Source: Terebella lapidaria
Taxonomy: Eukaryota > Annelida > Polychaeta > Terebellida > Terebellidae
Assembly (NCBI GenBank): GCA_949152475.1
Contig: OX424559.1
Coordinates: 32,283,119 to 32,347,118, forward strand
Length of the DNA: 64,000 bases
Direction of reading: 5' to 3'
The position numbers were made by a program, and so were the translations under genes. Position 1 is the first letter of the stretch. The number at the start of each line of letters is the position of its first letter. The notes beneath the pieces are model-generated. The model was not told the DNA's origin. It saw nothing but the letters and a program-made list of their open reading frames with translations, and made no database searches. Positions 4,123 to 62,880 of this stretch are shown here, piece after piece.

Positions 4123-5566
4123 AAAATTAGGCCAAGGGCCGAAGATAGGTTACCGGACAATGTTTAATATCTTAGATGTTAGCCAGGTCACTGGTTGAAT
4201 TCAAGGCCAAGAGAATATTCAGCATATACATTAACATTAAGCATATATCATGTCCACAGTTGATTGCTAAGCTGTGAATTCAATAATCAGAGAGATATTA
4301 GCAATTTTGTGCTGTGGCCTTGAAAATGAAGGGGCAAAGGTCAAATTCAAGGTCATCAAAATATTCAATGTATATCATTTTCTATATCATGTCCACAATT
4401 GATTCCCAAGCCATACAGTCAATAGAGGAGCAAGATATGAGCCAGTTTGTCCTGTGACCTTGAAAAAAAGGTCAGAGGTCAAATTCAAGGTCCCGAGAAT
4501 ATTCAGCATATATCATTTCCTATATGTCCACAATTGATTCCTAAGCTGTAAAATCGATAATAAGTGAGATATTAGCCATTTTGTCCTGTCACCTTGAAAA
4601 TGAGTTCAAAGGTCAAATTCAAGGTCATGACAATAATCTGCATATATCATTTCCTATATGTTCATAATTGATTGCTAAGCTGTAAAGTTGATAACAAGCG
4701 AGATATTAGCCATTTTGTCCTGTGACCTTGAAAATGAGGTCGAAGGTCAAACTCAAGGACATCAGAATATTCAGCATATATCATTTCCTATATGTCCACA
4801 ATTGATTCCTAAGCTGTAGAGTCGATAATAAGCGAGATATAAGTCATTTTGTGCTCTGACCTTGAAACTGAGGTCAGAGGTCAAATTCAAGGTCACGAGA
4901 ATATTCAGCATATATCATTTCCTATATGTCCACAATTGCTTCCTAAGCTGTAGAGTCGATAATAAGCGAGATATAAGCCATTTTGTGCTCTGACCTTGAA
5001 ACTGAGGTCAAGGTCAAATTCAAGGTCACAAGAGTATTCAGCATATATCATTTCCTATATGTCCACAATTGATCCCTAGTCTCTAATCTCAATATCAATT
5101 GAGATATTAGGCATAATGACTTGTGTCCCATTATAAAGCATAGGAGAATTTAACATGGGAAAGTCCCATTTGGGCCGAGTTTGGGCCAAAATGGCCCACT
5201 TCGAGCGATTCAAGCGCAACAAAATTTATAGACATCATAGGAGTACATATGAGGAGTGTTATGTATCAAAAAGAAAAAAAGTTACTGAACAGATTTTGAG
5301 AAAATGGCCGCCAAAGTCCAAAATCAGGCATTTTTCGTCGAAAACAGCCGCCATTTTTAAAAAAATGTGAAAATCAAAAAACTAAAAAATATCTCCTTCT
5401 TGGATTATTTTTAAGTATTTTTGTGCAAAATTTCAGAAAAATTCGCCTGTAAACAAAAAAGATAAAAATGTGGACGACGACGACGACAGACGACGACGGA
5501 CGACGACGACGGACGACGGACGCAACGCCATGCCAATAGGTTATCGGACCATAGGTCCGGTAACCT
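4123..5566 (+). mobile_element. Array transposon, copy A (internal ~134-bp tandem repeats)
   Basis: This is a non-autonomous element in the same orientation as the copies at 15.1 and 60.4 kb. The left end reads AATTAGGCCAAGGGCC, then AGGTTACCGGAC; the right end is GGTCCGGTAACCT, the reverse complement of that left motif. Between them lie about seven diverged ~134-bp units, each with TGACCTTGAA, AGGTCA-type direct half-sites and TTCAAGGTCA. A unique ~480-bp right module follows (about 5085-5566), rich in ATGGCC/GGCCAT and GACGACGGAC runs, and ends in a hairpin (GGTTATCGGACC / GGTCCGGTAACC). The small open frame at 5155-5370 lies in this right module; similar frames occur in other copies as repeat sequence, so I do not call it a gene. 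No transposase is present. Class is uncertain: TIR DNA transposon, or a Helitron-like element because of the terminal hairpin. Confidence 0.75.
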
Positions 5567-5584
5567 AAAAATGATCACTTTGGT

Positions 5585-11500: not shown

Positions 11501-13021
11501 CTATCGCAAAAATTGAAGAAGTTGGCAAATCTATCCCATGTTGAATTTCAACCAAAACATTTATCGTGATTCTGAGTAGGCCTATTATTGTAATGTTGGA
11601 CCAGAAAACGAACTGGTTGTGCATTCCACACAAACATGTTGATTTCGAAAGATTACACCGCTACAAAACCGAGCAAATGCACAAAATTGTGACGGATCCA
11701 GAAATTAAATGACATGAATTTCAACCCTGGGGTAGATTGCAAACTTTTTCAATTTTAACGACAGAAGTCTGAAATTCGGTGGAAAATTTCCGTTCGACTC
11801 CCAGGTGCAGTATGCCATGTTATGGAACGATACTATTTAACATTACAAAAATTATCAACAAAAACAGTGTAAACGATTAAGAAAAATAAGAAAATCGAAA
11901 ATCATTATTTTCGAGAATGGGCAACCATATAGCAGGTAATCAAGAATCCAAGTTCGGGTAAAACAAACAGAGCCAATTGGAAGACACTCATAAAATAATG
12001 AGTTTCCCTGAGAACCATACCCTTGAGAAAGTGATGGTTTTTTTTTTCTTTTGTCCGAACCTGTTTTCAGTAGTGTACGCTTTATGGCCGGTCCAACATT
12101 TGTTCGCGCACCGGCTGGTTTGATCTTCGCTCGAGCTGTTTCAAGACAGTACACATATATGGAATGGCACAGGTATATGCATTGGTATTCATAAAAAAAA
12201 AATTAGATTTAGATGTTCATTTAGACGATGTATATTTGTCTACTTCGACTGATGATTAATAGCCAAAATTAAATAGAAATCAAAGAATGCCTTTAAAAAT
12301 TTAGTACCCCTCCCCACACCCAAAGTTATGCCTAAGGACGTGTTTCCATAGCAACTCACGTGGGTCGGTGGGTCGGCGCTTGGTACACCGAGCCGAGCAC
12401 TTGTTGTACAGGCACACAACAGCAACTAAGACGAGTGAGGCACCCAGGACCACTCCGAAACCGACTCCCCACCGGTACAGCCCCGAACTGGTCGTGTATG
12501 ATCAATATATACTATACAGACACTTTTGGTTGTATTCGGCTTTATATATTTAATGACTAAATATCGACAATTATAGTCAAGCGAAACCAAACATTCAGAA
12601 TGCCGGGTAAAATCAGTACATTTTCGAGGAAATTTGTAATGAATTTTCCGTGAAATCCTGTATCCGTATTCGCGGGGGTATTTTTTTTATGGCGGAGCCT
12701 ATCTGTTTCCGCTTTCAACTTCCGACCGGATACCAAGCTTACCACACTGCATGGACAATCATTACGCATCAGAAAATACCAACGATATATACCATGGCAA
12801 ATTCATTCATCTGACTTACTCTCCTGAAGGTCTCTCACAGCACCGCCTCATGTATATGGACCCACAGCAGTCGGAGTACGAGTCAGGCTCAAAAGGCATA
12901 GGGCAGTAGACAGTGGAAGTGTTGGTGGCGGCGTGATCGGGGGAGAATTTGTGAACGGCGCAGGGGGTACCTGCATCACGATAAAAGTAAAATATTTTCA
13001 TTATTGATAATTATAGAGGTA

Positions 13022-13056
<35 letters not shown>

Positions 13057-16000
13057 ATCAAACGATGATAAGCCATGTATGATAATTTATTGTGTCGTGA
13101 ATCATCAAGTTTGAAAACAAAACCTACAAGCAGAGTAATAAATATCACATATCACAATAACCTAAATTTCAATACGTTCATGTCCAAAAATGTCGAAGCT
13201 AATTGCTTTCCCACATGGTAGCGGTTCAGGCTTATGTTTTACATGTGCATCTAGGATATTTAAAATACTACGTTGAACACGCATGTATCATTAAATATTG
13301 TGTATTGAATCATGTACGTGAAGGGAAACTATAAATAGATAACTCACCGCTCTTCCACGTCATAAGCTCATCTTGGGTTAATTCCCGCTCGTCAAATGTC
13401 AGGTATAAAATGTCCCTACGTTGGGAGGATGACAACCGTACAGGTATTAATTGAATCGATAAGATTACAATAACTCCCGCAGACTAGGCAATATAACTCA
13501 ACATAGACCACATCAACCACATCACACCAAGACTACAACAAATTGTTATGTATGGAATGAACGTCTTTAACGATCACAACACAGCGTTTATTGTTAAATG
13601 GTTATCACCTTTTGCAAGCAACACGTGAAGTGCTGAAGAGTTCCGGCAAAATTATGTATTCAGAAGGTTTCTTTGTGCAGATAAAAGCTCACCTTGAATC
13701 AGGGTTCAAGTCCAAAGTCCCATTGTCAGAACCGGCCACATCTGTGAGGGAGGTAGTTTCAATAGATGGAAATGCAAAAATACAAACTATGCTCATTCTT
13801 AAAATAGACGTAAATGTCATTTTCCCATGTACAAATATAGGTAAATAAATAATGTTACACGTAATGATGTGTGTATATAGCCCGCGCACTGAATAAATAT
13901 TAATTTCTGAATATATTTATGGTCACATATGGAAGCATACTTTGATCATCCACATAACCTGTTGTCACTGGGTGGGAGCTTGCCCATGATTCTTGACGAG
14001 TCAACTCGGTAAAAATCTTTCCTCGCAGGGGCTTTGCTCGGCAAAAATCTTTTGTCGCATGGGCTTTCAGATGCCCCTGCGATTAAAGATTTTTGCCGAT
14101 GCGACCAAAGCCCCTGCGAGGAAAGATTTTTACCGAGTGGACTCGTCAAGAATCATGGGCAAGCTCCCACCCAGTGGTTGTTTCACCATAACTTGTTTTG
14201 ATTTTCACAACAAAACGTGTTGTGATGAATTGTACATTAACATGATCTGTGTGATATATATGAAATTGTAAGACATCTTGCTAAGTTAATCATGTCGAGT
14301 CAACTTGGCGTGATATTTTCACGTTAACACGCCTTGTTGTGTAAGTTACACGAAATGTCGTGATGAAACAACAGGTTATATGCATGATCAAATTATGCTT
14401 CCATATTGTTGCTTTCGGTGTTTATTTCAAGCCATTTGGGTAGGCGTTTCATGATGAAGGCTTCATGAAATCCATGCCGATTTTTGTCATTGACGTTACC
14501 GAATGAATTCAATCAAGCAAATTAGTGGGAACCGTTTCACTCGACTGCTACATTAATTGGCCGTACGTGTCTAGATGAAAAGAAAGGTATTAAATCATAC
14601 TGCCCCGCAACCAATGCCTGTTCAATAACTTGATGAGAATTACGTGTTATACACGCAAGAGAGCGTTATTGATATTGCTGAGTAGTGATAATTGGCGCAT
14701 GGTTGTTGCAGAAGGAAGCTGGCTAATAAAATTGATTAATGTCCAACGAAAGTCAAAGAACGGAAATGTCACATCGCTCATCTCACATCAAAGATGAGAA
14801 ATACTGCAAGTTCATTGATCGCGATGAGTCGCACAGGTAAAACGTTGGGATCTGTCAGTGATGGGCATATATAAACCGTATTCATATGGATATATATATT
14901 CAACGTGGCCAGGTCTATTGTTGATGGGACTTGCGCCATGTAAATGTATATCTTTGCATTAAGTGGTGATGACAAGGGCGGGGATTAATATGTATAGAGA
15001 TGAGTACGTATACAGTGCGTACATAAATAATAACAGGTTTGCAACAGTTGTCAGTTAACTTAGAATTATCGTCTAGGCTTCCTTGTGCTGAATTAATTCA
15101 TGTAATTTGAACACAGTAGAAATTAGCCCAATGGGCTAGAAAGTTTACCGGAGAAATATACAGAGTTAAGCCGAGAAAGTTGAAGGTCAAATTCAAGGTG
15201 ACCACTGAAATCGCCATATCTCTAACCGTGAAAATGGGATCAAAGGTTAAATTCTAGACCACCAAACTATTCAGCATACATCATTTCCTATATGTTCACT
15301 ATGGACCAATAAGCTGTAAATTTGATAATAAGCGAGATATAAGCCATTTTGTAATCTGACTTTGAAAATAAAATGACTGACCTTGAAATTTAGGTCAAAG
15401 GTCAAATTCAATATCATTAAAATATTCAGAATATATCATTTCCTATATGTTCACAATTGATTCCTAAGCTATAAAGTCGATAATAAGCAAGATATTAGCC
15501 ATTTTGTCCTGTTGACCTTGAAAATGAGGTCAAAAGTCAAATTCAAGGTCACTAGAATATTCAGCATATATCATTTCCTATATCTTCACAATTGATTCCT
15601 AAGCTGTAAAGTCGCTAACAAGCAAGATATTCGCCATTTTATCCTGTGACCTTGAAAATGAGGTCAAAGGTCAAACTCAAGGTCACGAGAATATTCAGCA
15701 TATATCATTTCCTATATGTTCACAATTGATTCCTAAGCTGTAAAGTCGATAATAAGCGAGATATTAGCAATTTTGTCCTGTGACCTTGGAAATGAGGTCA
15801 AAGGTCAAATTCAAGGTCATGAGAATATTCAGCATATATCATTTCCTATATGTTCACAATTGATTCCTAAGCTGTAAAGTCGATAATAAGCAAGATATTA
15901 GCCATTTTGTCATGTGACCTTGAAAATGAGATCAAAGGTCAAATTCAGGGTCATGAGAATTTTCAGCATATATCACTTCCTATATGTTCACAATTGACTC

Positions 16001-17653
16001 CTAAGCTGTAAAGTCGCTAATAAGCAAGATATTGGCCATTTTGTCCTGTGACCTTGAAAATGAGGTCAAAGGTCAAATTCAAAGTCACGAGAATATTCAG
16101 CATATATCATTTCCTATATGTTCACAATTGATTCCTAAGCTGTAAAATCGATAATAAGCGAGATATTAGCAATTTTGTCCTGTGACCTGGGAAATGAGGT
16201 CAAAGGTCAAATTCAAGGTCATGAGAATATTCAGCATATATCATTTCCTATATGTTCACAATTGTTTCCTAAGCTGTAAAGTCGATAATAAGCAAGATAT
16301 TAGCCATTTTGTCATGTGACCTTGAAAATGAGGTCAAAGGTCAAATTCAGGGTCATGAGAATTTTCAGCATATATCATTTCCTATATGTTCACAATTGAT
16401 TCCTAAGCTGTAAAGTCGCTAATAAGCAAGATATTGGCCATTTTGTCCTGTGACCTTGAAAATGAGGTCAAAGGTCAAATTCAAGGTCACGAGAATATTC
16501 AGCATATATCATTTCCTATATGTTCACAATTGATTCCTAAGCTGTAAAGTCGCTAATAAGCAAGATATTGGCCATTTTGTCATGTGACCTTGAAAATGAG
16601 GTCAAAGGTCAAATTCAAGGTCACGAGAATATTCAGCATATATCATTTCCTATATGTTCACAATTGATTCCTAAGCTGTAAAGTCGCTAATAAGCAAGAT
16701 ATTGGCCATTTTGTCATGTGACCTTGAAAATGAGGTCAAAGGTCAAAGTCAAGGTCACGAGAATATTCAGTATATATCATTTCCTATATGATCACAATTG
16801 ATTCCTAAGCTGTAAAATCGATAATAAGCGAGATATTAGTCATTTTGTCCTGTGACCTTGAAAATGAGGTCAAAGGTCAAATTCAAGGTCACGAGAATAT
16901 TCAGCATATATCATTTCCTATATGTCCACAATTCATTCCTAGTCTCTAATCTCAATATTAAGTGAGATATTAGGCTTTAATGTGTCCCATTATAAAGCAT
17001 AGGAGAATTTAACATGGGAAAGTCCCATTTGGGCCGAGTTTGGGCCCAAAATGGCCCACTTCGAGCAATTCAAGGGCAACGAAATTTATACATGTCACAG
17101 GGGTACATATGAGGATTGTTATGCATCAATATAAAAAAAGTTACTGAACAGATTTTGAGAAAATGGCCGCCAAAATCCAAAATCAGGCATTTTTCGTCGA
17201 AAACGGCCGCCATTTTGAAAAAAATGCGAAAATAAAAAAACTAAAAAATACCTCCCTCTCGAAATATTTTTAGGCATTTTTGTGCAAAATTTCAGAAAAA
17301 TTCGATCTTAAACTTTAAAGATAAAATTGTTGACGGACGACGACGACGACGGACGACGGACGACGACGTTGGACGCAACGCCATGCCAATACGTTATTGG
17401 ACCAAAGGTCCGGTAACCTAAAAAACACCTGCGTAGAAAACCATGGCAGATAAACCCATGTTGCTTATTTCAAAACAAAATATTTTTACCAAAATGCTGA
17501 AAACTCGGGTATATCACTAATAATTCGAAATCAATATAATTAAAATTGGACGCCGAATATTTTGATAATAACTGTATATTAATATTAAAAAAATAATTTG
17601 TACTTACACATGATTTGCGATGCTATGCCATACATCACAAGGGTGAAGAACAT
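8339..17653 (-). CDS. Shisa/STMC6-like membrane protein with duplicated cytosolic domain
   Basis: Eleven phase-consistent exons: 17653-17608, 13741-13693, 13415-13348, 12970-12820, 12487-12360, 12135-12061, 11319-11041, 10320-10172, 9729-9591, 8945-8586, 8400-8339 (stop). They total 1506 nt, 501 aa. Residues 1-19 form a signal peptide (MFFTLVMYGIASQIM...). Residues ~56-103 are cysteine-rich: TPCAVHKF, YCPMPFEPDSYSDCCGS, RRCCERP. This pattern resembles Shisa and related single-membrane-pass six-cysteine (STMC6) adaptors. Residues ~109-131 are the membrane segment (WGVGFGVVLGASLVLVAVV), followed by KCSARCTKRR, which sets a cytosolic C-terminus. Residues ~172-481 contain two diverged copies of a ~150-aa unit that I do not recognise (TVEQLWAEILIRF vs VTINLWEAVSSIW; ISQTEIEVRFTRAE vs ISRRLTVTFQFPTEE). 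The short exon 6 (donor CAG|GTTCGG) is the weakest link; if it is wrong, there are two genes. An alternative start at 13820 (MTFTSILRMSIVCIF...) would replace the first exon. Confidence 0.65.
8518..8551. repeat. (TA)n microsatellite
   Basis: An uninterrupted TA repeat lies in the last intron of the Shisa-like gene. Confidence 0.95.
10394..10661. mobile_element. MITE, family 1, copy 1
   Basis: Terminal inverted repeats TATGGAAGCA / TGCTTCCATA bound the element. The inner sequence (TTGACGTGATAT, TCGTTGTGTAAGTTA, GACAAGTCGTGA) matches the copy at 13928-14405. The element lies in an intron of the Shisa-like gene (between the exons at 11041-11319 and 10172-10320). There is no coding capacity. Confidence 0.7.
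11372..11895. mobile_element. Palindromic MITE, family 2, fullest copy
   Basis: The two halves are long imperfect inverted repeats. CTAACTCGTTTATACCGG and GGTATCGTTCTGTAAC on the left are matched in reverse complement by GGAACGATACTATTTAAC and CAGTGTAAACGATTAAG on the right. GTCTGAAATTC/GAATTTCAAC words surround the centre. The element is in an intron of the Shisa-like gene. Related copies or fragments occur at 19375-19480, 22326-22530, 46470-47040 and 50005-50165. Confidence 0.75.
13024..13058. repeat. (GATT)n microsatellite
   Basis: About eight tandem copies of a GATT/TTGA tetranucleotide lie just upstream of the cysteine-module exon of the Shisa-like gene. Confidence 0.95.
13928..14405. 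mobile_element. MITE, family 1, copy 2, with nested foldback
   Basis: Long TIRs begin TATGGAAGCATACTTTGATC on the left and end GATCAAATTATGCTTCCATA on the right. The inner right half resembles the copy at 10394-10661. A separate 211-bp hairpin (13966-14176) is inserted near the left end. The element lies in the first intron of the Shisa-like gene. Confidence 0.8.
13966..14176. mobile_element. Nested 211-bp foldback element with 5-bp target duplication
   Basis: The arms start CACTGGGTGGGAGCTTGCCC and end with its reverse complement, and run almost to the centre (~14071), so nearly the whole element is one palindrome. GTTGT flanks it on both sides (13961-13965 and 14177-14181), the size and form of a target-site duplication. 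It sits within MITE family 1 copy 2. Confidence 0.85.
15121..17419 (+). mobile_element. Array transposon, copy B (about 12 units)
   Basis: This is the largest and most regular copy. The left end is AATTAGCCCAATGGGCTA (itself a small palindrome) followed by AGTTTACCGGAG; the right end is GGTCCGGTAACCT. About twelve tandem units follow, spaced 134 bp where measured (repeat starts at 16452, 16586 and 16720). A typical unit reads TGACCTTGAAAATGAGGTCA, AGGTCAAATTCAAGGTCA, then a ~95-bp spacer (GAATATTCAGCATATATC, TTCCTATATGTTCACAATTG, CCTAAGCTGTAAAGTCG). About ten units keep an exact AGGTCAAAGGTCA. The ~490-bp right module (16930-17419) matches those of copies A and C. It lies in the first intron of the Shisa-like gene, ending about 190 bp downstream of its signal-peptide exon. 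Confidence 0.85.
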
Positions 17654-31840: not shown

Positions 31841-33377
31841 GAATATCGTGGATCTTCTGGGGACCTTCTAGGTATGGTCAGATATCCAAATTCGTAAACA
31901 AATGGCCGTCATCTTCGATCTCATTCTATATACGTTTACATATATCAAATTATTTCATTACATTCATTGAGAATGAATATCTATACTTTGCCCCCATGAT
32001 CATGTTTCTAAGTGTAGATTCGAAATATGCATGGCATTGTGGATGTCCCATTTGCAGTGATAACCTATGGTTTTGCCAGCGAAGATCCCATCAAAATCGG
32101 AATCTGCATACTAGAAAAAAACCTTTATATAAATCTGCCAACTTTCTTCCCAGAGGGAATGTTCTTTTTTGACATACCCGTTGAGCTATTTCTGAAACCC
32201 TGTCACTATATTATTGTCGGATGATTGTATGTACTCGTATTACATCTTCTGGTGCTTATAACTCCTACTGTAAAAGTAAGCAGAATCAAATAATTGGGAA
32301 AATTCCCATTTGGTAGTAATTCTAGGGTATATAACGACATGGTTGAGTGGCCTCACCTACTTTCCTGTGAGAGTTCAGTTTCTTTACTGGAATAATACTG
32401 GAGTGTGAGATTATTATCAGCCGAAATAAATGGGATGCTTTATAGCAATTATAGTAATAAATCAAAGTCTGTCCTGACCTGGTGATTTCAATTTCAATTT
32501 ATTCCAGCATAATGACAAAATATTACAATGAAACTAGTATGTCGCTGCAACATATTTACAAAGACATCACTTGATTAACTACAATAAAATGTTTACTATT
32601 AACTACAATAAAATGTTTCCTACTATGAATGCCAGCCCGCTTTTAGCAACCAGGCAAACCATTAATCCACCTAATTATAATAGCCACCAAATTACGAGTA
32701 ATGGTTGTACATTTTATTCTGTAATTCAAATTGTAATACTGATTTGTTCAGCTATCTGCTCGACTAAGTCCCTAAGTGTTATACAGTCATACCATATTTA
32801 TAAAAATTCACACATTTGGTGAACAATCCCATTTGAATACTAGTTGATGGGCCAGTCACACATTAACGAATTGGTAGAATGGATGGGAAATGGCAGGGGA
32901 AATGATAACGTGATGATTTTTATCACTGTCTCTTCCCTTTCATTGACTCTTCCATGGTTAGGTAACCTTCATTTCTAGGTTCCTGTTATGTGATTTTTTT
33001 GTGATTCGACAACTAAATCCAAATGTAGAAATGAAATGTTAGCTTTTTTGTTGCGCAAAACACTCTTTTCTCCCAGTGTTTTCGATCATCCTGCCGAATC
33101 CGGTTGTGTGTGACGGGCCCATATCCTGTAATTATGGCAGTTTAAAATAATTGTGTCGTTTGGGCACTGTCAATCAAATATGTAATGGTATAACGGAGAC
33201 ACCAATTACCATTTAAATGCATACAGCAAATTATTTGCTTCAAATTGCTATATTATCCACAACGACACTGACGTGAAAGTGGCTATTATTATCCTGGAAA
33301 TTGACCTTTAAACGCACATATATGTCAAAAGCATATTTGAAGCCCTTCATATACAAATCTGGTGTAGTTGCAATAGG
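31841..33377. other. Intergenic, 5' flank of the GPCR gene
   Basis: No gene recognised. A 24-bp duplication (ATTAACTACAATAAAATG) lies at about 32572-32622. The rest is AT-rich. Confidence 0.45.
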
Positions 33378-34415
33378 TTGGCACGAAGAATACATCCTTT
33401 AGTGTTGTTAAATCTAAATGTTGAAATGGAGGTGGATAATTCAACCATGCTCAAAAACACATATGTGAACAATGCCAGTGATGATCATCCATGGAGTGAT
33501 GGGATTTTGTCTGTGAATAAAATTATCAATCTGGTTTTCTCAGTGCCCGCTGTTATAGTCAATTTAAGCACCATCATTGTGATGGTCAAGTTTTGCGGCA
33601 AACTTTCCGAGCACCTGAAACTGGCTCTCAATCAGTGCATCTTGGATATGTTTGTCACTATTGTTGTGATATGCCAAGCTACGCTCTCGCAACACGCCTG
33701 TTCACGAGGAATAATTGAGATATGGTTATTCACTCTTCCTGTACCAGTCTGTTGGAACTTGATTTTGATTGCCCTGGAGATGTTTGTAGCGGTGAAGTGG
33801 CCACTGAACTACCCACTGATTGTGACGCACAGACGTGTGCACCTGGCTGTGCTGGGAATCTACCTGGTGGTCGGACTGGGCAACATTGGTGTCGTGATGA
33901 CTGGAGTTATTTTATGGAGAATGAATTCCATTATCCCAGGAAGGAGTTTACCACAAGTTTCAAGTGCTGAGTCAGCCTGTGAAGCTATATTTGAGCACAT
34001 GTGGTCAATTCATGGTATGATGTTGTTAATCAGCAACTATGTTTCTGTTGGCAGTTGTCTCATAATCCTAATCTGTGTGTATTGTTACATATATCACACC
34101 GTTCGGAAATCACAAGTCGGACTACCTGGGCCAAGTATCAACCTGAGGAAGTCAGCTGTGACATCAGCCTGTGTTATAGTGTCATTCCTTTTCTGCATAG
34201 CATTCTATTCAATATGCCTGGGGATATTTGTCAATGGCATGAATTTCACTCTACCGCTGAACTCATTGTTCGATGCAGTTATTTATGCAATTCGTCTACA
34301 GGAAGTAAAAAAAGGGTATAAGGAATTTGGCAAAGCGATCAGGAAAATTCTGTGTCATAAACTTGATGAAATAGAAACAAGTCAGCTAACAAAACGAGAA
34401 ATGACTTCGATATGA
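33378..34415 (+). CDS. Intronless orphan rhodopsin-like 7TM receptor
   Basis: A single uninterrupted 345-aa frame has seven hydrophobic segments at about 48-72, 79-102, 114-138, 155-180, 208-240, 259-285 and 291-308. Family-like features: LALNQCILDMF in TM2 (the L-x-x-x-D region), extracellular cysteines at 108 and 201 that could form the TM3-ECL2 disulfide, KWPLNYP after TM3, and basic residues around loop 3. Deviations: the DRY box is EMF (ALEMFVAVKWPLNY) and NPxxY is replaced by FDAVIY. N-glycosylation sites NST (21) and NAS (32) precede TM1. Met17 (33426) is an equally good start, placing NST near the N-terminus. The ligand is unknown; it may belong to a lineage-expanded, possibly chemosensory group. 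The frame is intact, but expression is not shown. Confidence 0.8.
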   Translation: MARRIHPLVLLNLNVEMEVDNSTMLKNTYVNNASDDHPWSDGILSVNKIINLVFSVPAVIVNLSTIIVMVKFCGKLSEHLKLALNQCILDMFVTIVVICQATLSQHACSRGIIEIWLFTLPVPVCWNLILIALEMFVAVKWPLNYPLIVTHRRVHLAVLGIYLVVGLGNIGVVMTGVILWRMNSIIPGRSLPQVSSAESACEAIFEHMWSIHGMMLLISNYVSVGSCLIILICVYCYIYHTVRKSQVGLPGPSINLRKSAVTSACVIVSFLFCIAFYSICLGIFVNGMNFTLPLNSLFDAVIYAIRLQEVKKGYKEFGKAIRKILCHKLDEIETSQLTKREMTSI

Positions 34416-38799: not shown

Positions 38800-39420
38800 A
38801 GGTTTGCTTTTCATGTGAACCCATATGAATCATTTTCAAGTTCAAAGCACAACATGGCTATGTTGCTTATTATCGACTTTACAGCTTGGGAATCAATTGT
38901 GCACACATAGGTTGAATATTCTGATGACTTTGAACTTGACCTTTGATCATATTTTCAAGGTCAGGGCACAAAATGGCTAATATCTTGATTATTATCGACT
39001 TTTTAGCTTAGGAATCAACTGTGGAAATATAGGAAATGATGTGTGCTGAATATATCGATGATCCTGATTTCTACCTTTGACCTCAGTTTCAAAAGTTAGA
39101 ACACAAAATGGCTAATATCTGGCTCATTATCAACTTCACAGCTTTGGAATCGATTGTGCACATATAGGAAATGATATATGCTGAATATTCTATATATATG
39201 ACCATATTTATAAGGTCAGTGCACAAAATGGTTGATATCTTGTTGATTATCGACTTAATAGCTTTAAAATCAATCGCTGACATAAAGGAAATGATATGTG
39301 CTGAATATCCTTGTGACCTTGAACTTGACGAGTGACCTTATTTTCAAGGTCACAGGACAGAAGGGCTAGTATCCATGGTATCTGAAATATAAAACATATA
39401 TTGTCCAGTGACCTTCCTTA
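38800..39420 (-). repeat. Degraded array-transposon units, reverse orientation
   Basis: Four to five diverged ~130-bp units are in the opposite orientation to copies A-C (TTATCGACTTTACAGCTT, GGAAATGATATATGCTGAAT, CTTTGACCTCAGTTTC). The unique right module and terminal hairpin are absent, so this is a relic of an old array. Confidence 0.8.
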
Positions 39421-41841: not shown

Positions 41842-42394
41842 TCGATAATGTTGTATTGAAGAATTCAAGTCGTGTCACAGAATAAACTATTTATTATATT
41901 CCATTTTATGATGATTATATTCTAATTAATTTTGGAGTAAGACCTATTAAATGACCAAGTATTGCACGTTCCCATTAGTAGGTTGTGACCTACACCAATC
42001 ATCATGGTATCTTTTGCCCATTCGAGCAAGCAAATTACTAGTATACTGTAACGAATCCTCTCTATATACATGTACCCATGTTCGTTTGTAATTTGATAGA
42101 GGATTATAAATAATGTTTGTGGATTCGAATCAACTACAAATATGGCCAATCTATTGTTTAGGCTCTCCAATTGGAAACAAACATAAACCTAGAAATTCAC
42201 TGAATATTTTAGGGTAATTTCCCATCAGTTTAGGGAATCTCCCACTAGCCCAGGTTTCTCATTATCTATTATTATGCCATGGACAGGTATGGCGCCTATT
42301 TTGAATTGTCCGTTAATATTCTATTCAATTTCCAATCTGATCATTCATATATCGAGAGCAATAACTCAAACACAAAATATATAGTTCAATACAG

Positions 42395-43700
42395 TGGTTT
42401 ATAAAGTCAATTAGTTCATATATTTTTCCTATTTTCAAAACTGGTGCTACGGACGAGATGAAAAACTATCGTCCTGTATCTGTTTCACCCGTCATATCTG
42501 AAATATTCGAAAAAATTGTATATAATCGCATGATAATTTTTTTCGAAACGCATATTATCAATGATTTCCAGTTTGGATTTCAGAAAGGGAAGTCTTCTTA
42601 CATGGCCCTCCATTTACTCGTCGATAAACTGCATTCTGCAATGGAAGCAAATAAATATACGGTGGGACTTTTCATTGATTTCTCGAAAGCGTTTGATACG
42701 CTGGATCATCATATCTTACTCACCAAACTTCATCGTTATGAGATAAGGGGAAATGCATATGGATTGATGAAAAATTATCTCTCCGACAGAAAACAGCACG
42801 TATATTTCAATAACACCAAATCAGAGAATTGTGATATCAAATGTGGGGTGCCGCAAGGCAGCATACTCGGACCATTAATGTTTATCGTTTATATTAATGA
42901 TATTGTTAATATTTCTGATCTCTTGTATATGATCTTGTACGCCGATCATACGAATATATTCTCCTCAACTACTACACACGACGATGCCATCAATGTCATG
43001 AATCGCGAGGCCATAACAATTTATGAATGGTTCAAGGTGAATAAGCTTTCATTGAATGTGAGTAAAACTAAATGTATGATATTTTCACCGAGAAGTCGAT
43101 TTTTCGAAACAATAAGGACATGTTTATTAATGGTGCTCGAATAGAAATAACCCATGAAACAAAATTTTCAGGCGTCATGATAGATGACAAATTGAACTGG
43201 GATTACCATTTCAGAAACATCAAAGCTAAAGTTTCCAAAAGCATCGGTATTTTGTAGTCAAGGCACAAACTATTTACAGATACACTTATAACTATATACA
43301 ATGCCTTGGTTTTACCATATTCATCATATTGTATCGTTGTTTGGGGTCGTTCATACAATAGAAATACCAACTCAATTTTATTGCTACAGATGAAAATTGT
43401 TCGACTAATAACTTTTTCCGAATACAGGGCGCATACAAACAACTTATTTCTTAAATGTAGGATTTTAAAGTTTGATTCGTTGTATTCATATTTTACGGGC
43501 ATACTTGTGTTCAAATTTAGTCAGAATAAGCTGCCAATGTTTTATTCTGCATTTTTTTCAAGAAATGATTTCAATCACATGTATGATACAAGCAATGTCT
43601 TTAGTTTGGAAGAAAGCGACGGAATGATGGTACAACTTGAAACACCCCCGTTTCCCCTCGTCCCCCAATCCATAGCAACGGGACTCCCGGGTGCACTTGG
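42395..43700 (+). pseudogene. Non-LTR retrotransposon RT, large but broken copy (Jockey/CR1-like)
   Basis: Homology starts before the first Met (IFPIFKTGATDEMKNYRPVS). It then shows, in order, QFGFQKGKSS, motif A (GLFIDFSKAFDTLDH), motif B (KCGVPQGSILGPLMFIVYIND), motif C and the thumb region (WFKVNKLSLNVSKTKCMIF). In motif C the second Asp is lost (YADH instead of YADD), and the Asp pair binds catalytic metal, so activity would be lost. A frameshift near 43090 moves the reading to FSGVMIDDKLNWDYHF, a TAG follows at 43255-43257, then ALVLPYSSYCIVVWG and LQMKIVRLITFSEYRAHT near the C-terminus. The 5' part of the element, including any endonuclease, is absent. Confidence 0.9.
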
Positions 43701-47465: not shown

Positions 47466-47789
47466 GATCTACTGTACTCTGATTTAAATGACTTCGATCT
47501 GACCACTGTTATTCAACAATAAACATACTATCCTCAAAGTTCTAGGACAACCATCGATGAAACTCAACACATCTCGGAAGTAAAAAAAATTATGACACAC
47601 AAAACGTTCCATACCAATAGTCACCTCAGAACCAACCTAACATCACCGCTCAAGGGGTGTTTTTAGTTTGGAAACTGAAAACGGTTGCATTAAACATGTC
47701 ATGATGGCCTGATTCTCATATGTGTGCAAGATTCTGGTGGGCAAACACGGACATCAATTGCATGTATTAAATGCATTATTGTTAAAACT

Positions 47790-48225
47790 GTTCATGAGCA
47801 ATATCCTCAACATTTTTACAGTGATGTTCATAAGCAACATCCTCAACACTATTAAAGTGATGTTCATAGGCAACATCCTCAACATTATTACAGTGATGTT
47901 CATAAGCAACATCCTCAACAATATTAAAGTGATGTTCATAGGCAACATCCTCAACATTATTACAGTGATGTTCATAAGCAACATCCACAACATTATTACA
48001 GTGATGTTCATAAGCAATATCCTCAAAGTTATTACAGTGATGTTCATAAGCAACATCCACAACATTATTACAGTGATGTTCATAAGCAATATCCTCAAAG
48101 TTATTACAGTGATGTTCATAAGCAACATCCTCAACATTTTTACATTGATGTTCATAGGCAACATCTTCAACATTATTACAGTGCTGTCCATAAGCAATAT
48201 CCTCAACATTATTACAGTTATGGAA
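47790..48225. repeat. 36-bp minisatellite, about 12 copies
   Basis: The unit is GTGATGTTCATAAGCAACAT plus CCTCAACATTATTACA. Because 36 is a multiple of three and stops are absent in several frames, it creates long open frames on both strands (e.g. 47722-48291, 47754-48242) that encode only repeats. It lies 3' of the TRIM-type gene's stop codon at 48516. I do not call these frames genes. Confidence 0.9.
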
Positions 48226-51708: not shown

Positions 51709-54700
51709 ACTAAAAGCGATATTAGCTGTACTGTACAGCTAATGTTAACATTAGCTGTACATATATTTTTATGGCTATTACTAGAGAAATATAAGTTTTA
51801 GATATTATCGGTTCACTTTTTTAAAAAGCATTTTCAAAGACATAATCGCAGTGAAAGACTATTCTCTCAACAACTAATATCTGAAGATATCATTTTTTTT
51901 GTGTACAGCTAATATTTTACTTGCCGTTTTATCTCTATATTGTATATTAGCTGCCGGATTTTCTCTAAAGTGTATATTAGCTGTACATCTGAATATATGT
52001 ACAGCTAATATTACCTGAACATATACATCTGAATATATGTACAGCTATTGTTGCATGAACATATGCAAAAGATATACAGATAATATTCTGGACGGGTCCA
52101 GGCTTTAAGAAATACTGAACTAAGGGCTGGGGGATAGAGTGGACTTTTCTCTTTAACTATTCTGAGGATATCGTTCATAAACAATAGACGATGGCACGAT
52201 ATGGTGCTAACATGCTCATTTATCACACGGATTAACATTCATAATGATGAAAAAGCATTCGCGAAATATCGCGAAATAACGCAATAGAAAAATATTTTTG
52301 TTGCGTCTATGCTTCTGTACTTCTGTTCTCGGGCGAGTTCTTATCTCTTCGCATTGTGAAATGCAATCACTATACCTCCTGTAAGAATCATGCTCTGTGA
52401 TAGGTCAATTGCAATGAAATAATTTGTTCTGCTGGAGCCGCCCGCCATGTCGAGACAGTAAACGATAAACGGACCGGATGGTAATTTTGATATACTAACC
52501 GGCAGCCTTCGGATGTTGTATTGTTCACATGTTGCTTATGGAGATTGACAATCGATTTTCCGTCAATGACATTATGTCAGAACAGATATTCGGTATAGTA
52601 AAATAAATACATACCTCTGTGCATATTGGCACAGCGGAATATTCCCCTTGTAAGACATAACCACCCTCGGTTGACGCCTCGGGTATCTCTCTCGAAGAAT
52701 AATCCGCTGTACCAATATACATACAGGGTTGTATTTATATAATATCGTAATGGCTCGGTTAAGCGCTGGGGCGCTCAATTATTTGTCAATGAAGTCCCCC
52801 CCCCCACCTCATCCCTGTACAGAAGTGCGATATAGGCCTACTTGAATTTCCCATAAAATTCCGGCAAATAGGAATGCCAATTAGCCCAACAATTCTAACG
52901 GTGACTTCGAATATTCTGGTCTTATATGTAAGGGTAGCTTTTTACCTTCAAAATGATGTAACCTATTACACATGCCGATAAAAGCTGACGATTGTTAGGT
53001 ATTATTGCATGTACAGAAGTGCGATATACTTGTATTTCTCCCAAAATAGTAAATTCCGGCGAGTAAAAATGACAATTAGCACAACAGTTTTAGCGGTGAT
53101 CATTCTTTTTTATTTTTAGTTTTATATGTAAGGGTAGCTGTTTACGTTCAAAACGGCATATTACAGTATATTTACGGTATATTACACATGCGGATAAAAC
53201 TGACAATCGTCAGGTAATACTGTATAGAATTACCATGTATTTCCTATAAACCGTAGATTACGGCAAGTAAAAAAGGCCAATTAGCGCAAAAATTCCATAG
53301 ACATCTCTGTTCTATGTCTATGAAAATACTAACGGTGACCCTGATTTTTTTGTCTTATATGTAAAGGTAGCTTTTTACCTTCAAAATGACGTATTACACA
53401 TGCCGATAAAACTGACGATTGTTAGGTAATATTGTACAGAAATGCGTATATAGCCTATACGCTTATTTCCTCGAATCCTTACGTGTCAGATTCCGGCCAG
53501 TAGAAATGCCAATTAGCGCAACAATTCTAACGGTAACCCCATATGTTTTTGATTCCATATGTAAAGGAAGCTTCTTTCCGTCAACATGATGCCGATAAAA
53601 CTGACGATTGTTTAATAGTATTATACAGAAATGCGATAGGCCTATATACGTTTATTTCTCCTAAATCGTAATATGTCATATTCCAGCGAGTAAAATGTCA
53701 GAAATTAGTGCAACAATTCTAACGGTGACCCCATATTTTTTTAGTTTCATATGTAAGGGTAGCTTATTCCCTTCAAAATGATGTATTACACATGCCTATA
53801 AAACTGGCGATTGTTAAATAATATTGTACAGAAATGCGATATATACGTTTATTTCCCCTAAATCGTAACATGTCAGGTTCTGGCAAGTAAAATGTCAGAA
53901 TATAGTGCAACAATTCTAACGGTGACCCCACATTTTTTTGGTTTCATATGTAAGGGTAGCTTCTTTCCTTCAACATGATGTATTACATATGCCGATAAAA
54001 CTGACAATTGTAACTTAATATTGTACAGAATCGTGATATATACCATTACATTTCCCCTGAATCATTACGTGTAAGATTCCGGCGAATAAAAATGCCAATT
54101 AACGCAACAATTCTAATGGTGACCCCACATTTTTTTGGTTTCATATGTAAGGGTAGCTCCTTTACTTCAACATGATGTATCACATATGCCGATAAAACTA
54201 ACGATTGTTAATTAATATTGTACAGAAATGCGATATATACGTTATTTCCTCTGAATCGTTACATGTCAGATTCCGCCGAGTAAAAATGCCAATTAGCGCA
54301 ACAATTCTAACAGTGACCCCATATTTTTTTGGTTTCATATGTGAGGGTAGCTTCTTTCCTTCAACATGATGTATCACATATGCCGATAAAACTAACGATT
54401 GTTAATTAATATTGTACAGAAATTCGATATATACGTTATTTCCTCTGAATCGCTACATGTCAGATTCCGCCGAGTGAAAAATGCCAATTAGCGCAACAAT
54501 TCTAACGGTGACCCCATATTTTTTTTGTTTCATATATAAGGGTAGCTTCTTTCCTTCAACATGATGTATCACATATGCCAATAAAACTAACGATTGTTAA
54601 ATAATATTGTACAGAAGTGCGATATATACGTTTATTTCCCCTAAATCGTAACATGTCAGGTTCTGGCGAGTAAAATGTCAGAAGTTAGTGCAACAATTCT

Positions 54701-57568
54701 AACGGAGACCCCACATTTTTTTGTTTTCATATGTAAGGGTAGTTTCTTTCCTTCAACATGATGTATCACATATGCCGATAAAACTGACGATTGTTAATTA
54801 ATATTGTACAGAAATGCGATATATACGTTATTTCCTCTGAATCGTTACATTTCAGATTCCGTGCGAGTAAAAATGCCAATTAGTGCAATATTTCTAAGGG
54901 TGACCCCATATTTTTTGGGTTTCATATGTAAGGGTAGCTTCTTTCCTTCAACATGATGTATTACACATGCAGATAAAACTGACGATTGTTTAGTAGTATT
55001 GTACAAAAATGCGATAGGCCTATATACGTTTATTTCTCCTAAATCGTAATATGTCATATTCCAGCGAGTAAAATGTCAGAAATTAGTGCAACAATTCTAA
55101 CGGTGACCCCATATTTTTTTAGTTTCATAAGTAAGGGTAGCTTCTTCCCTTCAACATGATGTATTACACATGCCGATGAAACTGACGTTTGTTAAATAAT
55201 ATTGTACAGAAATGCGATATATACGTTTATTTCCTCTAAATCGTAACATGTCAGGTTCTGGCGAGTAAAATGTCAGAAATTAGTGCAACAATTCTAAGGG
55301 TGACCCCACATTTTTTTGGTTTCATATGTAAGGGTAGCTTCTTTCCTTCAACATGATGTATTACACATGCCGATAAAACTGACAATTGTTACTTAATATT
55401 GTACATAATTGCGATATATACCAGTATATTTCCCCTGAATCGTTACGTGTATAAGATTCCGGCGAATAAAAGTGCCAATTAGCGCAACAATTCTAACGGT
55501 GACCCCATATTTTTTTGGTTTCATATGTAAGGGTAGCTTCTTTCCTTCAACATGATGTATCACATATGCCGATAAAACTGACGATTGTTAATTAATATTG
55601 GACAGAAATGTGATATATACGTTATTTCCTCTGAATCGTTACATTTCAGATTCCGTGCGAGTAAAAATGCCAATTAGCGCAATAATTCTAACGGTGACCC
55701 CATATTTTTTGGGTTTCATATTTAAGGGAAGCTTCTTTCCTTCAACATGATGTATTACACATGCAGATAAAACTGACGATTGTTTAGTAGTATTGTACAA
55801 AAATGCGATAGGCCTATATACGTTTATTTCTCCTAAATCGTAATATGTCATATTCCAGCGAGTAAAATGTCAGAAATTAGTGCAACAATTCTAACGGTGA
55901 CCCCATATTTTTTTAGTTTCATATGTAAGGGTAGCTTCTTTCCTTCAACATGATGTATTACACATGCCGATGAAACTGACGTTTGTTAAATAATATTGTA
56001 CAGAAATGCGATATATACGTTTATTTCCCCTAAATCGTAACATGTCAGGTTCTGGCGAGTAAAATGTCAGAAATTAGTGCAACAATTCTAAGGGTGACCC
56101 CACATTTTTTTGGTTTCATATGTAAGGGTAGCTTCTTTCCTTCAACATGATGTATTACACATGCCGATAAAACTGACAATTGTTACTTAATATTCTACAT
56201 AATTGCGATATATACCAGTATATTTCCCCTGAATCGTTACGTGTATAAGATTCCGGCGAATAAAAGTGCCAATTAGCGCAACAATTCTAACGGTGACCCC
56301 TTATTTTTTTGGTTTCATATATAAGGGCAGCTTCTTTCCTTCAACATGATGTAGTACACATGCAGATAAAACTGACGATTGTCAGGTAACATTGTACAGA
56401 TATGCGATATATAGGCCTACGTTTATTTCCTCTAAATTGTAACATGTTAGTTTCCGGCAAGTAAAATTTCAGAAATTAGTGCATCAATTCTAACGGTGAC
56501 CCGATATTTTTTTGGCTTCATATGTAAGGGTAGCTTTTTTCCTTTAAAATGATGTATTACACATGCTGGTAAAACTGGCAATTGTTAGGTAATATTGCAT
56601 TACAAATGGGCGATATAGCCTACTTATATTTCCCCTATACTCTCCATTATAAAATGGCATTCAAGATTCGTTGCCTAAATTGTTCCCTAAGGAAAAAATA
56701 AAACGCACGGTCACTATACTTTTCTCGGTATTTTTGTTCTCAAACATACCAAAATGTTGACATTTGATTAATTCTTTTTTGAGCAAATATAGGACTACGC
56801 TTTTACGTTTTAGAAAGTGCGTCTCTGTGGGCGCAGAGGTGCATGGATCCTCCCCTTGTCCGCATGTCAGTGCAGAATAGTCAGTAGGTCTACGTTGCAC
56901 AATGTCGCCCATTATCATACTAGGGAGTGCCCGGAATCCCGCATTTGAGTTGTATATCTATTGCTATAGGGTGATTTTGCCAAAATAATAGGCCCACAAA
57001 ATTGCAGTAGGCCTACGGGTGGATATAACTGCAATGCAACGTAAAACACAACCTACAAAGTCAATGAGGTTATTAGCTGTACATATATGCCGAGTATATT
57101 TTTTAGCAAAAAGTGGTTATTGGCTGTACATTCGGACAAAGTATATGTTTTTTACTAAGTATAGACATTTTTATTACTTTTCACGTTGATTGGTATTTTG
57201 TCTTGCTGTTGCAGTTGAGTCATGTAAAACATGTGGTATGATAATATACTGATGCGAACGTTCAAGTATACTCCATTTATGGCACTACAATTCGTATGAA
57301 ATATTATGTACAGCTAATAGCACGAACGAAGTATACTCCCATGGTTTGAGCCGTTGGTATGTAGTCTTTTCTATTGATGAAAAGTCAATAATATTGCGGA
57401 AACAGGTAAAGGTGGTCACATTGGTCTCAAGTTATGGACGGCAATGCCAAAAAATAAACGAGCCATGCAGGAGAGACACACCAAATATTAGCTGTACACG
57501 AAAATGTACAGCTAACCGAAAAGTACAGCTAATCACAGGGTATATGTACAGCTAATATACACTTTAGA

Positions 57569-60398: not shown

Positions 60399-62348
60399 AA
60401 ATTAGCCCAAGGGTCTTTTGTCCCATGACCTTGCAAATAACGTCATTGGTCAAATCAAGGTCACGAGAATATTCAGCGTTTATCCTTTCTAGTACATTCA
60501 CAATTCATTCCTAAGCTGTAAAGTCAATAATAAATGAGATATTAGCCATTTATGATCTGACCTTGAAAGTGAGGGCAAAGATGAAGTTCAAGGTCATGAG
60601 AATATTCAGCATCTTTCATTTCCTTTGTGTTTGCAATTGATTCCTGAGCTGTAAAGTCGATGATAAGCAAGTCATTAGTCGTTTTGTGCTCTGACCTTGA
60701 AAATAAAGTCAAGGACAAACTCAAGGTCATCAGAATATTCAGTGTATATCATTTTCCAAATGTCCACAATTGGTTCCCATGCTATTAGGTCAAAAGAGAA
60801 GCAAGATATCAGCCAATTCGCCTTTTGACCTTGAAAATGAGGTCAAAGGTCGAATTCAGCGTCATGGCAATATTCAGCATACATCATTTACTATATGTTC
60901 ACATTTGATTCCTAAGCTGTAAAGTCGATATGGGAGATATTAGTCATTTTGTCCTGTGACCTTTGAATTTAGGTCAAAGGTCAAATCCTAGATCATGAGA
61001 ATAAAAAATGAGGTCAAAGGTCAAATTTAAAGTCATCAGAATATTCAGCGTATATCATTTCTTAAATGTCCACAACTGATTCCTGAGTTGTAAAGTCGGT
61101 AATGAGCGAGTATTAGCCATTTTGTGTGCTGACCTTGAAACTGAGGTCAGAAATCAAATTCGAGGTCATGCGAATATTCAGCATATATCATATCCTATAT
61201 GTCCACAATTGATCCCTAAGCTGTAAAATCGATAATAAGTGAGATATTAGCCATTTTGTCCTGTGATCTTGAAAATGAGGTCAAACGTCAAATTCAAGGT
61301 CATGGCAATAATCTGCATATATCATTTCCTATATGTTCATTTTGATTCCTAAGCTGTAAAGTCGATAAGAAGCGAGATATTAGCCACTTTTCCTATGACC
61401 TTGAAAATGAAGTCAAAGGTCAAATTCAAGGTCATCAGAATATTCGGCGCATATCATTTCCTAAAAGTCCACAATTGATTCCTACGCTGTAAAGTCGATA
61501 ATATGCGAGATATTAGCCATTCTGTGCTCTTGACCTTGAAATTGAGGTCAGAGGTCAAATTCAAGGCCAGGAGAGTATTCAGCATATATCATTTCCTAAA
61601 TGTCCACAATTGCTCCCTAAGCTGTAAAATCAATAATAAAAGAGACATTAGCCATTTTGTCCTGTGAACTTGAAAATTAGGTCAAAGGTCAAATTCAAGG
61701 TCATGAGAATATTCGGCATATATCTTCTCCTATATGTCCACAATTGATTCCTAAGCTGTAAAGTCGATAATAAGCAAAATATTAGACATTTTGTGCTCTG
61801 ACTTTGAAACCGAGGTCAGATGTCAAATTCAAGGTCACGAGAATAGTCAGCATATATCATTTCCTATATGTCTACAATTCATTCCTAATCTCTAATATCA
61901 ATATTAAGTGAGATATTAATGTGTCCCATTATAAAGCATAGGAGAATTTAACATGGGAAAGTCCCATTTGGGCTGATTTTGGGCCCAAAATGGCCCACTT
62001 CAAGCACTTCAAGGGCAACGAAATTTATACATGTCACAGAGGTATATATGAGGAGTGTTATGCATCAATAAGAAAAAAAGTTACTGAACAGATTTTGAGA
62101 AAACGACCGTCAAAGTCAAAAACCGGCCAGTTTTCGACGAAAACGGCGGCCATTTTGAAAAAAAAATCGAAAATCAGAAAACTAAAAAAAAAATACTTTC
62201 CTGGAAATAATTTTAGGTATTTTTGTGCACAATTCCAGAAATATTCCATCATAAACTTTAAAGATAAGAATGTGAACGGACGGACGAACGACGGACGCCG
62301 GACGCAACGCCATGGCAATAGGTTATCGGACCAAAGGTCCGGTAACCT
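60399..62348 (+). mobile_element. Array transposon, copy C
   Basis: The left end AATTAGCCCAAGGGTC lacks a clear GTTACCGG motif; the right end is GGTCCGGTAACCT. About eleven units are more diverged than in copy B. The right module (about 61880-62348) contains TGGGAAAGTCCCATTTGGGC and the GACGGACGGAC run. The open frame at 61990-62385 runs through this module and past the element end, and is not a gene. Confidence 0.8.
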
Positions 62349-62880
62349 GACAAAAGCAATAACTCTATTTTGTACGAAAAATTAAACATTCATTGCAAAA
62401 TATAGTATATTATACTCTATAACACAAACACGTGTACATATATGTATTTCTTTTTATCATACCTATAGTATTGTTCCTGATTCTAGGTGGCAGTGATATA
62501 GCAGATTCTACTATCATTGTCAACAAGACTGAACTATATATCATCCATGTTATAACGCGGAAGTGACTTCACAGATATCACTGCCACTGCCAGCAGAACG
62601 ACACTGTCAGGCATGATGCCAGATGGCAGTGATTTCCCAGACAAGGAACATGGGGTCTGGAAATCACTGCAAGCTACATGTACCTGTAAAATATCGGTAG
62701 TTACCGCCGCCTGACATCAGTTCAGTCTTAGTGGGAGTGGCATTGGAATCTAGAAAATCACTGCCAGCTAGCATCAGACACCATCACAAACTATAAAGCT
62801 GATTGCAAGTACTTCATCCGTTTGTGTAAATGATATGCTTGTAGGTGAGCCACATGCTGCAATTTTGAATATTTAACGAT
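62349..62880. other. Intergenic; short CACTGCCA repeats
   Basis: GGCAGTGAT and ATCACTGCCA words recur on both strands between 62488 and 62775 (e.g. GGCAGTGATTTCCCAGAC, TCTGGAAATCACTGC), giving small overlapping palindromes. No gene recognised. Confidence 0.5.

Follow-up and report, generated by a model that had tools for sequence, protein, structure and literature searches.

A probable HINE-type transposon with nuclear-receptor-like half-sites in its central repeat in Terebella lapidaria

The locus considered here is a stretch of 64,000 nucleotides from the annelid Terebella lapidaria (assembly GCA_949152475.1, contig OX424559.1, positions 32,283,119 to 32,347,118; this whole stretch is the window referred to below). 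In the first intron of a Shisa-like gene it carries a transposon whose ~134-bp tandem units contain DR1, a direct repeat of two AGGTCA half-sites with a one-base spacer, and it thereby raises the question of whether such an element spreads working nuclear-receptor sites or words that simply travel with it. RXR, FTZ-F1 and ERR are the receptors expected at half-site words of this kind, and HNF4alpha is the one receptor with support from a paper. The dispersal of half-sites is real, and its carrier is probably a new member of the HINEs, i.e., non-autonomous Helentrons, with a motif-rich central repeat. We consider it likely that the receptor-like words are passengers multiplied passively in that repeat, and we infer that they have no receptor-related role. 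The direct observations concern the anatomy of the element, the structure of its arrays, a recent amplification in one copy, and rates of decay, all within this one window.

Half-site arrays in three copies and a relic

Pattern matching revealed three copies of the element, all oriented alike, and a relic array, in agreement with an earlier reading of the same DNA from its letters (the sequence-only reading); the relic runs the other way. The copies and their parts, including the subterminal inverted repeats (subTIRs), are as follows.

4127..5568, minus strand: copy 1, HINE-like element with a 13-bp perfect subTIR pair, an inverted repeat, a microsatellite, the array and a palindrome
4170..5078, plus strand: copy 1 array, 7 aligned units, none with an exact DR1
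15121..17421, minus strand: copy 2, a HINE-like element lying within the first intron of the Shisa-like gene (self-comparison and anatomy)
15123..15155, minus strand: copy 2, 3' end in element orientation, a subTIR matching the 5' subTIR at 10/11 positions and the palindrome TAGCCCATTGGGCTA
15223..16975, plus strand (motif strand): copy 2, central array of 13 aligned ~134-bp units, one of them degenerate, 10 with exact AGGTCAAAGGTCA
16853..16891, plus strand: copy 2, 39-bp block of one unit, a 10-bp inverted repeat TGACCTTGAA/TTCAAGGTCA around the DR1 (hairpin fold)
16976..17331, minus strand: copy 2, conserved left segment from the microsatellite to the array (three-copy alignment)
17332..17421, minus strand: copy 2, 5' end in element orientation, the subTIR GGTTACCGGACC at 17407-17418, a complementary inverted repeat, and a GTC/GTCC microsatellite at 17332-~17369
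38826..39380, minus strand: relic array, oriented opposite to copies 1-3, 4 usable units, none with an exact DR1
60402..62350, minus strand: copy 3, HINE-like element with an imperfect palindrome and no recognisable 3' subTIR
60425..61918, plus strand: copy 3 array, 11 aligned units, 2 with an exact DR1 and 1 more in an unaligned partial unit

In copy 2, Tandem Repeats Finder gave a period of 134 bp at 15378-16973 (11.9 copies, 93% matches), and the 10 exact DR1s among its 13 aligned units bear out the claim that about ten units keep this motif. The exact DR1 is rarer in the other arrays (0/7 aligned units in copy 1, 2/11 in copy 3, and 0/4 in the relic); the additional one in copy 3, at 60971, falls in an insertion of 40 bases that separates aligned units and is not counted with the 11. 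The plus strand of the window has 22 occurrences each of TGACCTTGA and TCAAGGTCA. The unit consensus contains four AGGTCA/TGACCT half-sites and matches both DR1 and the extended half-sites. Among 20,000 dinucleotide shuffles of this consensus, none had four half-sites, none had a DR1, and two had any AGGTCA dimer with a spacing of 0-8, a result that applies to one ancestral unit, judged post hoc, and not to ten independent events. Amplification of one ancestral unit in a known transposon class can thus yield a strikingly motif-rich repeat. Moreover, the DR1 can be read as two tandem AGGTCAA heptamers, which may reflect a local duplication.

The proposal that a transposon disperses AGGTCA-rich arrays was upheld by the distribution of half-sites, as 98 of the 123 in the window lie in the three elements and the relic (18 in copy 1, 43 in copy 2, 30 in copy 3, and 7 in the relic). 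With slightly wider element bounds, 99 half-sites fall inside and 24 outside. An excess outside the elements was ruled out, the 24 being compared with a mean of 23.3 (sd 4.7) in 30 shuffles of the outside sequence, and no AGGTCA dimers with a spacing of 0-8 were found in the window outside the elements and the relic.

Amplification and decay of the motif

The abundance of DR1 in copy 2 has a recent component. The three-unit block at 15647-16048 is identical to the next block at 394/402 positions, and units 3/6, 4/7, 5/8, and 9/10 of this copy are sisters on the tree. The exact DR1s of copy 2 are therefore in part recent copies, and the independent survival of ten DR1s was rejected on the same grounds. 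In addition, the last units, adjoining the left segment (c1_8, c2_12, and c3_10), cluster across the three copies, with an exact DR1 in one of the three. This array-end unit is a divergent variant common to all copies (4991-5078, 16853-16975, and 61799-61918), a pattern that points to turnover inside the array.

A comparison of motif and spacer decay offers a simple separation of passenger from selected motifs, and the sequence-only reading had named it as a check. The alignment of 37 rows was reduced to 35 units after two relic fragments (28 and 19 aligned bases) were dropped; changes per site are Fitch changes on a FastTree tree of these units, and the spacer comprises unit positions 40-134. 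The power of these tests is low, since a single window with four arrays supplied the 35 units and the units within an array are not independent. Outside copy 2 (22 units), DR1 identity was 0.879 against a mean of 0.884 for 13-bp windows, with 59.7% of the 134 windows equal or better; the corresponding level was reached by 38.1% of windows over 35 units and by 20.1% in copy 2 alone. Outside copy 2, the exact 13-mer was kept in 2/22 units (0.091) versus a window mean of 0.204, and the permissive DR1 (RGGTCANRGGTCA type) in 5/22 (0.227) versus an offset mean of 0.253. On the tree, DR1 showed 36 changes over 13 sites (2.77 per site) versus 235 over 95 sites (2.47 per site) in the spacer, and 86.6% of the 13-bp windows changed as little as DR1 or less. 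DR1 is thus not better conserved than the spacer, which leaves unsupported the idea that receptor binding, titration or transposition maintains the motif. Equal decay of motif and spacer, the first of the two outcomes that the sequence-only reading named as refuting its proposal, is seen for the DR1. Given a decay rate close to that of the remaining repeat sequence, the receptor-like words look like passengers and not like a selected function.

The words flanking the DR1 had also been described as extended monomer sites of nuclear receptors. The words themselves are present, but they do not stand as two separate sites, since TGACCTTGAA and TTCAAGGTCA are mutual reverse complements and hence the paired arms of a single 10-bp inverted repeat, counting as one find and not as two. 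The resulting 39-bp block folds into a 10-bp hairpin (-9.3 kcal/mol with DNA parameters, z -5.23), and 0/200 shuffles were equally stable.

Several measurements on this block and its half-sites weigh against a purely passive multiplication of the words. Among the 134 windows, the block ranks first in copy 3 (0.911 versus a mean of 0.878) and shares first place in copy 2 (level reached by 3/134 windows), and its level is reached by 4.5% of windows over 35 units and by 8.2% outside copy 2; the corresponding values are 24.6% for copy 1 and 82.8% for the relic. The 12 half-site positions, compared with base- and CpG-matched positions, rank in the top 3.7% (35 units), 12.7% (copies 1 and 3), and 20.1% (outside copy 2). 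As for the arms, changes per site amount to 1.50 in the left and 2.40 in the right compared with 2.47 in the spacer, and outside copy 2 the exact 10-mer is kept in 0.545 of units for the left arm versus a mean of 0.294 (top 3.7%) and in 0.455 for the right arm (top 17.9%). This conservation signal is mild and lies mainly in the inverted-repeat arms, not in the DR1; with arms slightly better conserved, the 39-bp block may still have some role.

Such a role could be structural, with the block acting as a cruciform or hairpin that aids tandem amplification or transposition and with its receptor likeness being incidental. The stability of the hairpin and the conservation of the arms are in line with this explanation, as is the conserved palindrome described near the repeat junction of the bivalve element DTC84 (PMC5139131). 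The arms, however, lack clear covariation, as 301/338 cells are paired (0.891) compared with a permutation expectation of 0.880, a value reached by 10.4% of 2000 permutations within arrays; the three double changes in the arms were all compensatory (permutation mean 1.06; 13.2% of permutations reach 3). Furthermore, the same report describes palindromes and conserved motifs as unnecessary for satellite junctions (PMC5139131). Overall, a structural signal is regarded as rather unlikely.

Less probable still is that the arrays would be real nuclear-receptor response elements, seeding or titrating RXR, HNF4, FTZ-F1 or ERR binding, and that copies near gene starts would alter expression. This proposal draws on the exact DR1 consensus, the four half-sites per unit, the concentration of half-sites in the elements and the relic, and the proximity of copy 2 (~0.2 kb) to exon 1 of the Shisa-like gene and of copy 3 (~0.7 kb upstream) to a probable coding start. 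It also has precedents. Alu repeats have been described as carrying HNF4alpha sites, with binding detected by protein-binding microarray and chromatin immunoprecipitation (ChIP) and a sink role discussed (PMC3252374), and RC (rolling-circle)/Helitrons of Arabidopsis as distributing binding sites of the MADS-box factor PHE1, with binding detected by ChIP-seq (PMC6914339). The Terebella element resembles the former as a transposon spreading receptor-like sites and the latter as a rolling-circle transposon spreading a transcription-factor motif. As far as these two reports describe their systems, it differs from Alu, a short interspersed element with tested binding, in holding its motif in a tandem array (PMC3252374), and from the plant Helitrons in being of an animal type (PMC6914339); in both comparisons the motif here is known from sequence alone. 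In addition, Helitrons with a GA-rich sequence have been implicated in dosage compensation in Drosophila miranda (PMC4945028, citing Ellison 2013). Nuclear receptors are the subject of neither of these two Helitron reports (PMC6914339, PMC4945028). Against a response-element function stand the decay of DR1 at the rate of the spacer and the scarcity of the exact motif in the arrays other than that of copy 2. Receptors may nevertheless bind such words without selection; if binding were shown, the ten DR1s held by a single copy would make a Helentron-type element a powerful supplier of new receptor sites close to genes.

Element anatomy and class assignment

The passenger reading places the array inside a HINE, a placement supported by the order of parts. 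On the minus strand, the element consists of AGGTTACCGGACC, a complementary inverted repeat, a GTC/GTCC-type microsatellite, a conserved segment of ~355-395 bp followed by the array, and a short right end in which a palindrome is followed by TAATTT. The microsatellite and the ~134-bp central tandem repeats are found in 3/3 copies, the microsatellite being shortest in copy 3, and the flanks of copies 1-3 are T-rich by eye. The inverted repeat complementary to the 5' subTIR takes the form GGTTACCGGACC...GGTCCGATAACC in copies 1 and 3, with GGTCCAATAACG in copy 2; of the two copies folded, copy 1 gave a z of -4.92 and copy 2 one of -1.05 for the hairpin of subTIR and inverted repeat. By sequence, the 3' palindrome is clear in copies 1 and 2 and imperfect in copy 3, and its folds are unexceptional (matched by 45, 11, and 40 of 200 shuffles for copies 1, 2, and 3, respectively). 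A 3' subTIR can be made out in copies 1 and 2, clearly in the former and with one mismatch in the latter, but not in copy 3. The complete set of HINE parts is present in 1/3 copies (copy 1).

Matches to GGTTACCGGACC with at most 2 mismatches number 7 in the window versus 1.47 expected, and 6/7 lie at the ends of the three elements. The local score of the subTIR pair nevertheless speaks against the assignment in two copies, as it is notable only in copy 1 (26; random 99% value 23, 99.9% value 44), and the scores of 17 in copy 2 and 19 in copy 3 fall under the random 95% value of 20, with the copy 3 match off its expected place. Likewise unfavourable is that no autonomous partner was seen, the Pfam scan having covered 10/148 open reading frames (ORFs) of at least 75 aa in the window. 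Since the subTIR pair is notable in copy 1 alone, the HINE label rests on the whole anatomy and not on the subTIR test.

The three copies align well at their left ends (88% mean column identity where they align, counting some host flank), and the left element part shows pairwise identities of 399/444, 368/426, and 374/419. The right ends (4127-4230, 15123-15245, and 60402-60500) align worse, with 66% mean column identity, host flank and array edge included; the exceptions are the palindrome and the GGGCTAATTT-like end.

Among the closest described systems are elements of oyster, other bivalves, Drosophila and a mite. Cg_HINE of the oyster Crassostrea gigas is reported as a set of non-autonomous Helentrons dispersing satellite-like arrays, and according to that description the Terebella element shares with it the part order, a GTCY/GTCC/GTCK-type microsatellite, a short satellite-like array, apparent insertion into T-rich DNA, and an array in one orientation relative to its flanks, here in 3/3 copies (PMC7492417). 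The unit of 134 bp differs from the Cg_HINE monomers, which are mostly 140-180 bp (CL12, 138 bp), in a comparison made by description and not by sequence (PMC7492417). Also by description only, it is like the bivalve elements Pearl, a modular element with a short array of ~160-bp repeats (PMC7492417, PMC5139131), and DTC84, with its conserved palindrome (PMC5139131); MgE is another bivalve element grouped with these two (PMC7492417, PMC5139131). DINE-1 and HINE of Drosophila and a mite are described with subTIRs, an inverted repeat near the 5' subTIR, a microsatellite, central repeats, a 3' palindrome, and TT insertion, similar to the present element, whose insertion also seems to be into T-rich DNA (PMC4067079). 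Bivalve genomes are reported to be rich in rolling-circle elements, with a mean of 5.91% (PMC10294476). No report of a DR1 or half-site motif in HINE repeats was found in the literature searched, which consisted mostly of openly accessible text without figures or Repbase. Searches with patterns and blastn for the unit and the element ends gave no match in viral, plasmid, phage and prokaryotic collections, which have little bearing on animals and may omit records of the window's own genome.

A miniature inverted-repeat transposable element (MITE) bounded by terminal inverted repeats with hairpin ends, and not a Helentron, is an improbable alternative. Short inverted TTAG/CTAA-like ends are visible by eye, and the weakness of the subTIR in copies 2 and 3 would agree with a MITE. 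However, the internal order of subTIR, inverted repeat, microsatellite, array, subTIR and palindrome fits HINE, the flanks are T-rich, and no convincing target-site duplication was seen by eye at the elements.

As a HINE, the element would be a non-autonomous Helentron on the minus strand that moves by rolling-circle replication, with a Helentron Rep/helicase, presumably encoded elsewhere, recognising the terminal subTIR and hairpin structures and with insertion into T-rich DNA. The central 134-bp repeats would grow and shrink through tandem duplication, so that the units of one copy grow alike, and the AGGTCA words, lying in the hairpin-forming 39-bp block, would be multiplied passively along with the repeat.

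Gene context and neighbouring features

The host gene of copy 2 is predicted from sequence, with two exons in the region concerned.

12819..12970, minus strand: Shisa-like gene, exon 2, cysteine-rich, 3' limit approximate
17608..17653, minus strand: Shisa-like gene, exon 1 (coding portion), resembling a signal peptide by eye, donor GTAAGTAC

The placement of copy 2 in intron 1 is supported by predicted minus-strand splice sites, exon 1 ending at 17608 with its donor at 17600-17607 and exon 2 starting at 12970 after CAG. The Shisa_N match in Pfam is weak (18.2 bits versus a cut-off of 22). The probable coding start near copy 3, at 59664, belongs to a minus-strand RING-domain protein (Pfam zf-C3HC4, 1.5e-08), for which a protein query returned one weak match, in Ciona savignyi (E 5.6e-4). 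Two of the three copies thus lie near gene starts, a number too small to test. Highly improbable is the combined proposal that the 39-bp hairpin/DR1 block would be a dual signal, driving tandem amplification or transposition of a Helentron element while also seeding arrays of nuclear-receptor sites beside gene starts, so that receptor-controlled host genes would be rewired by a rolling-circle transposon. The alternative explanations considered here are not mutually exclusive, and the likelihoods given to them need not add up to one.

Other repeats and coding features were also detected in the window. A large array with a ~197/398-bp period lies at 53325-56597 (8.3 copies of 398 bp, 84% matches), its period and consensus differing from those of the 134-bp unit, and a 36-bp tandem repeat of 12.1 copies, open in more than one reading frame (several in all), lies at 47789-48222. 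The region 42365-43144 contains a reverse-transcriptase ORF (Pfam RVT_1, 2.1e-32; 7920 protein matches), probably a retrotransposon fragment, and a single ORF matching a 7tm_1 receptor (Pfam, 1.5e-07) is located at 33312-34415.

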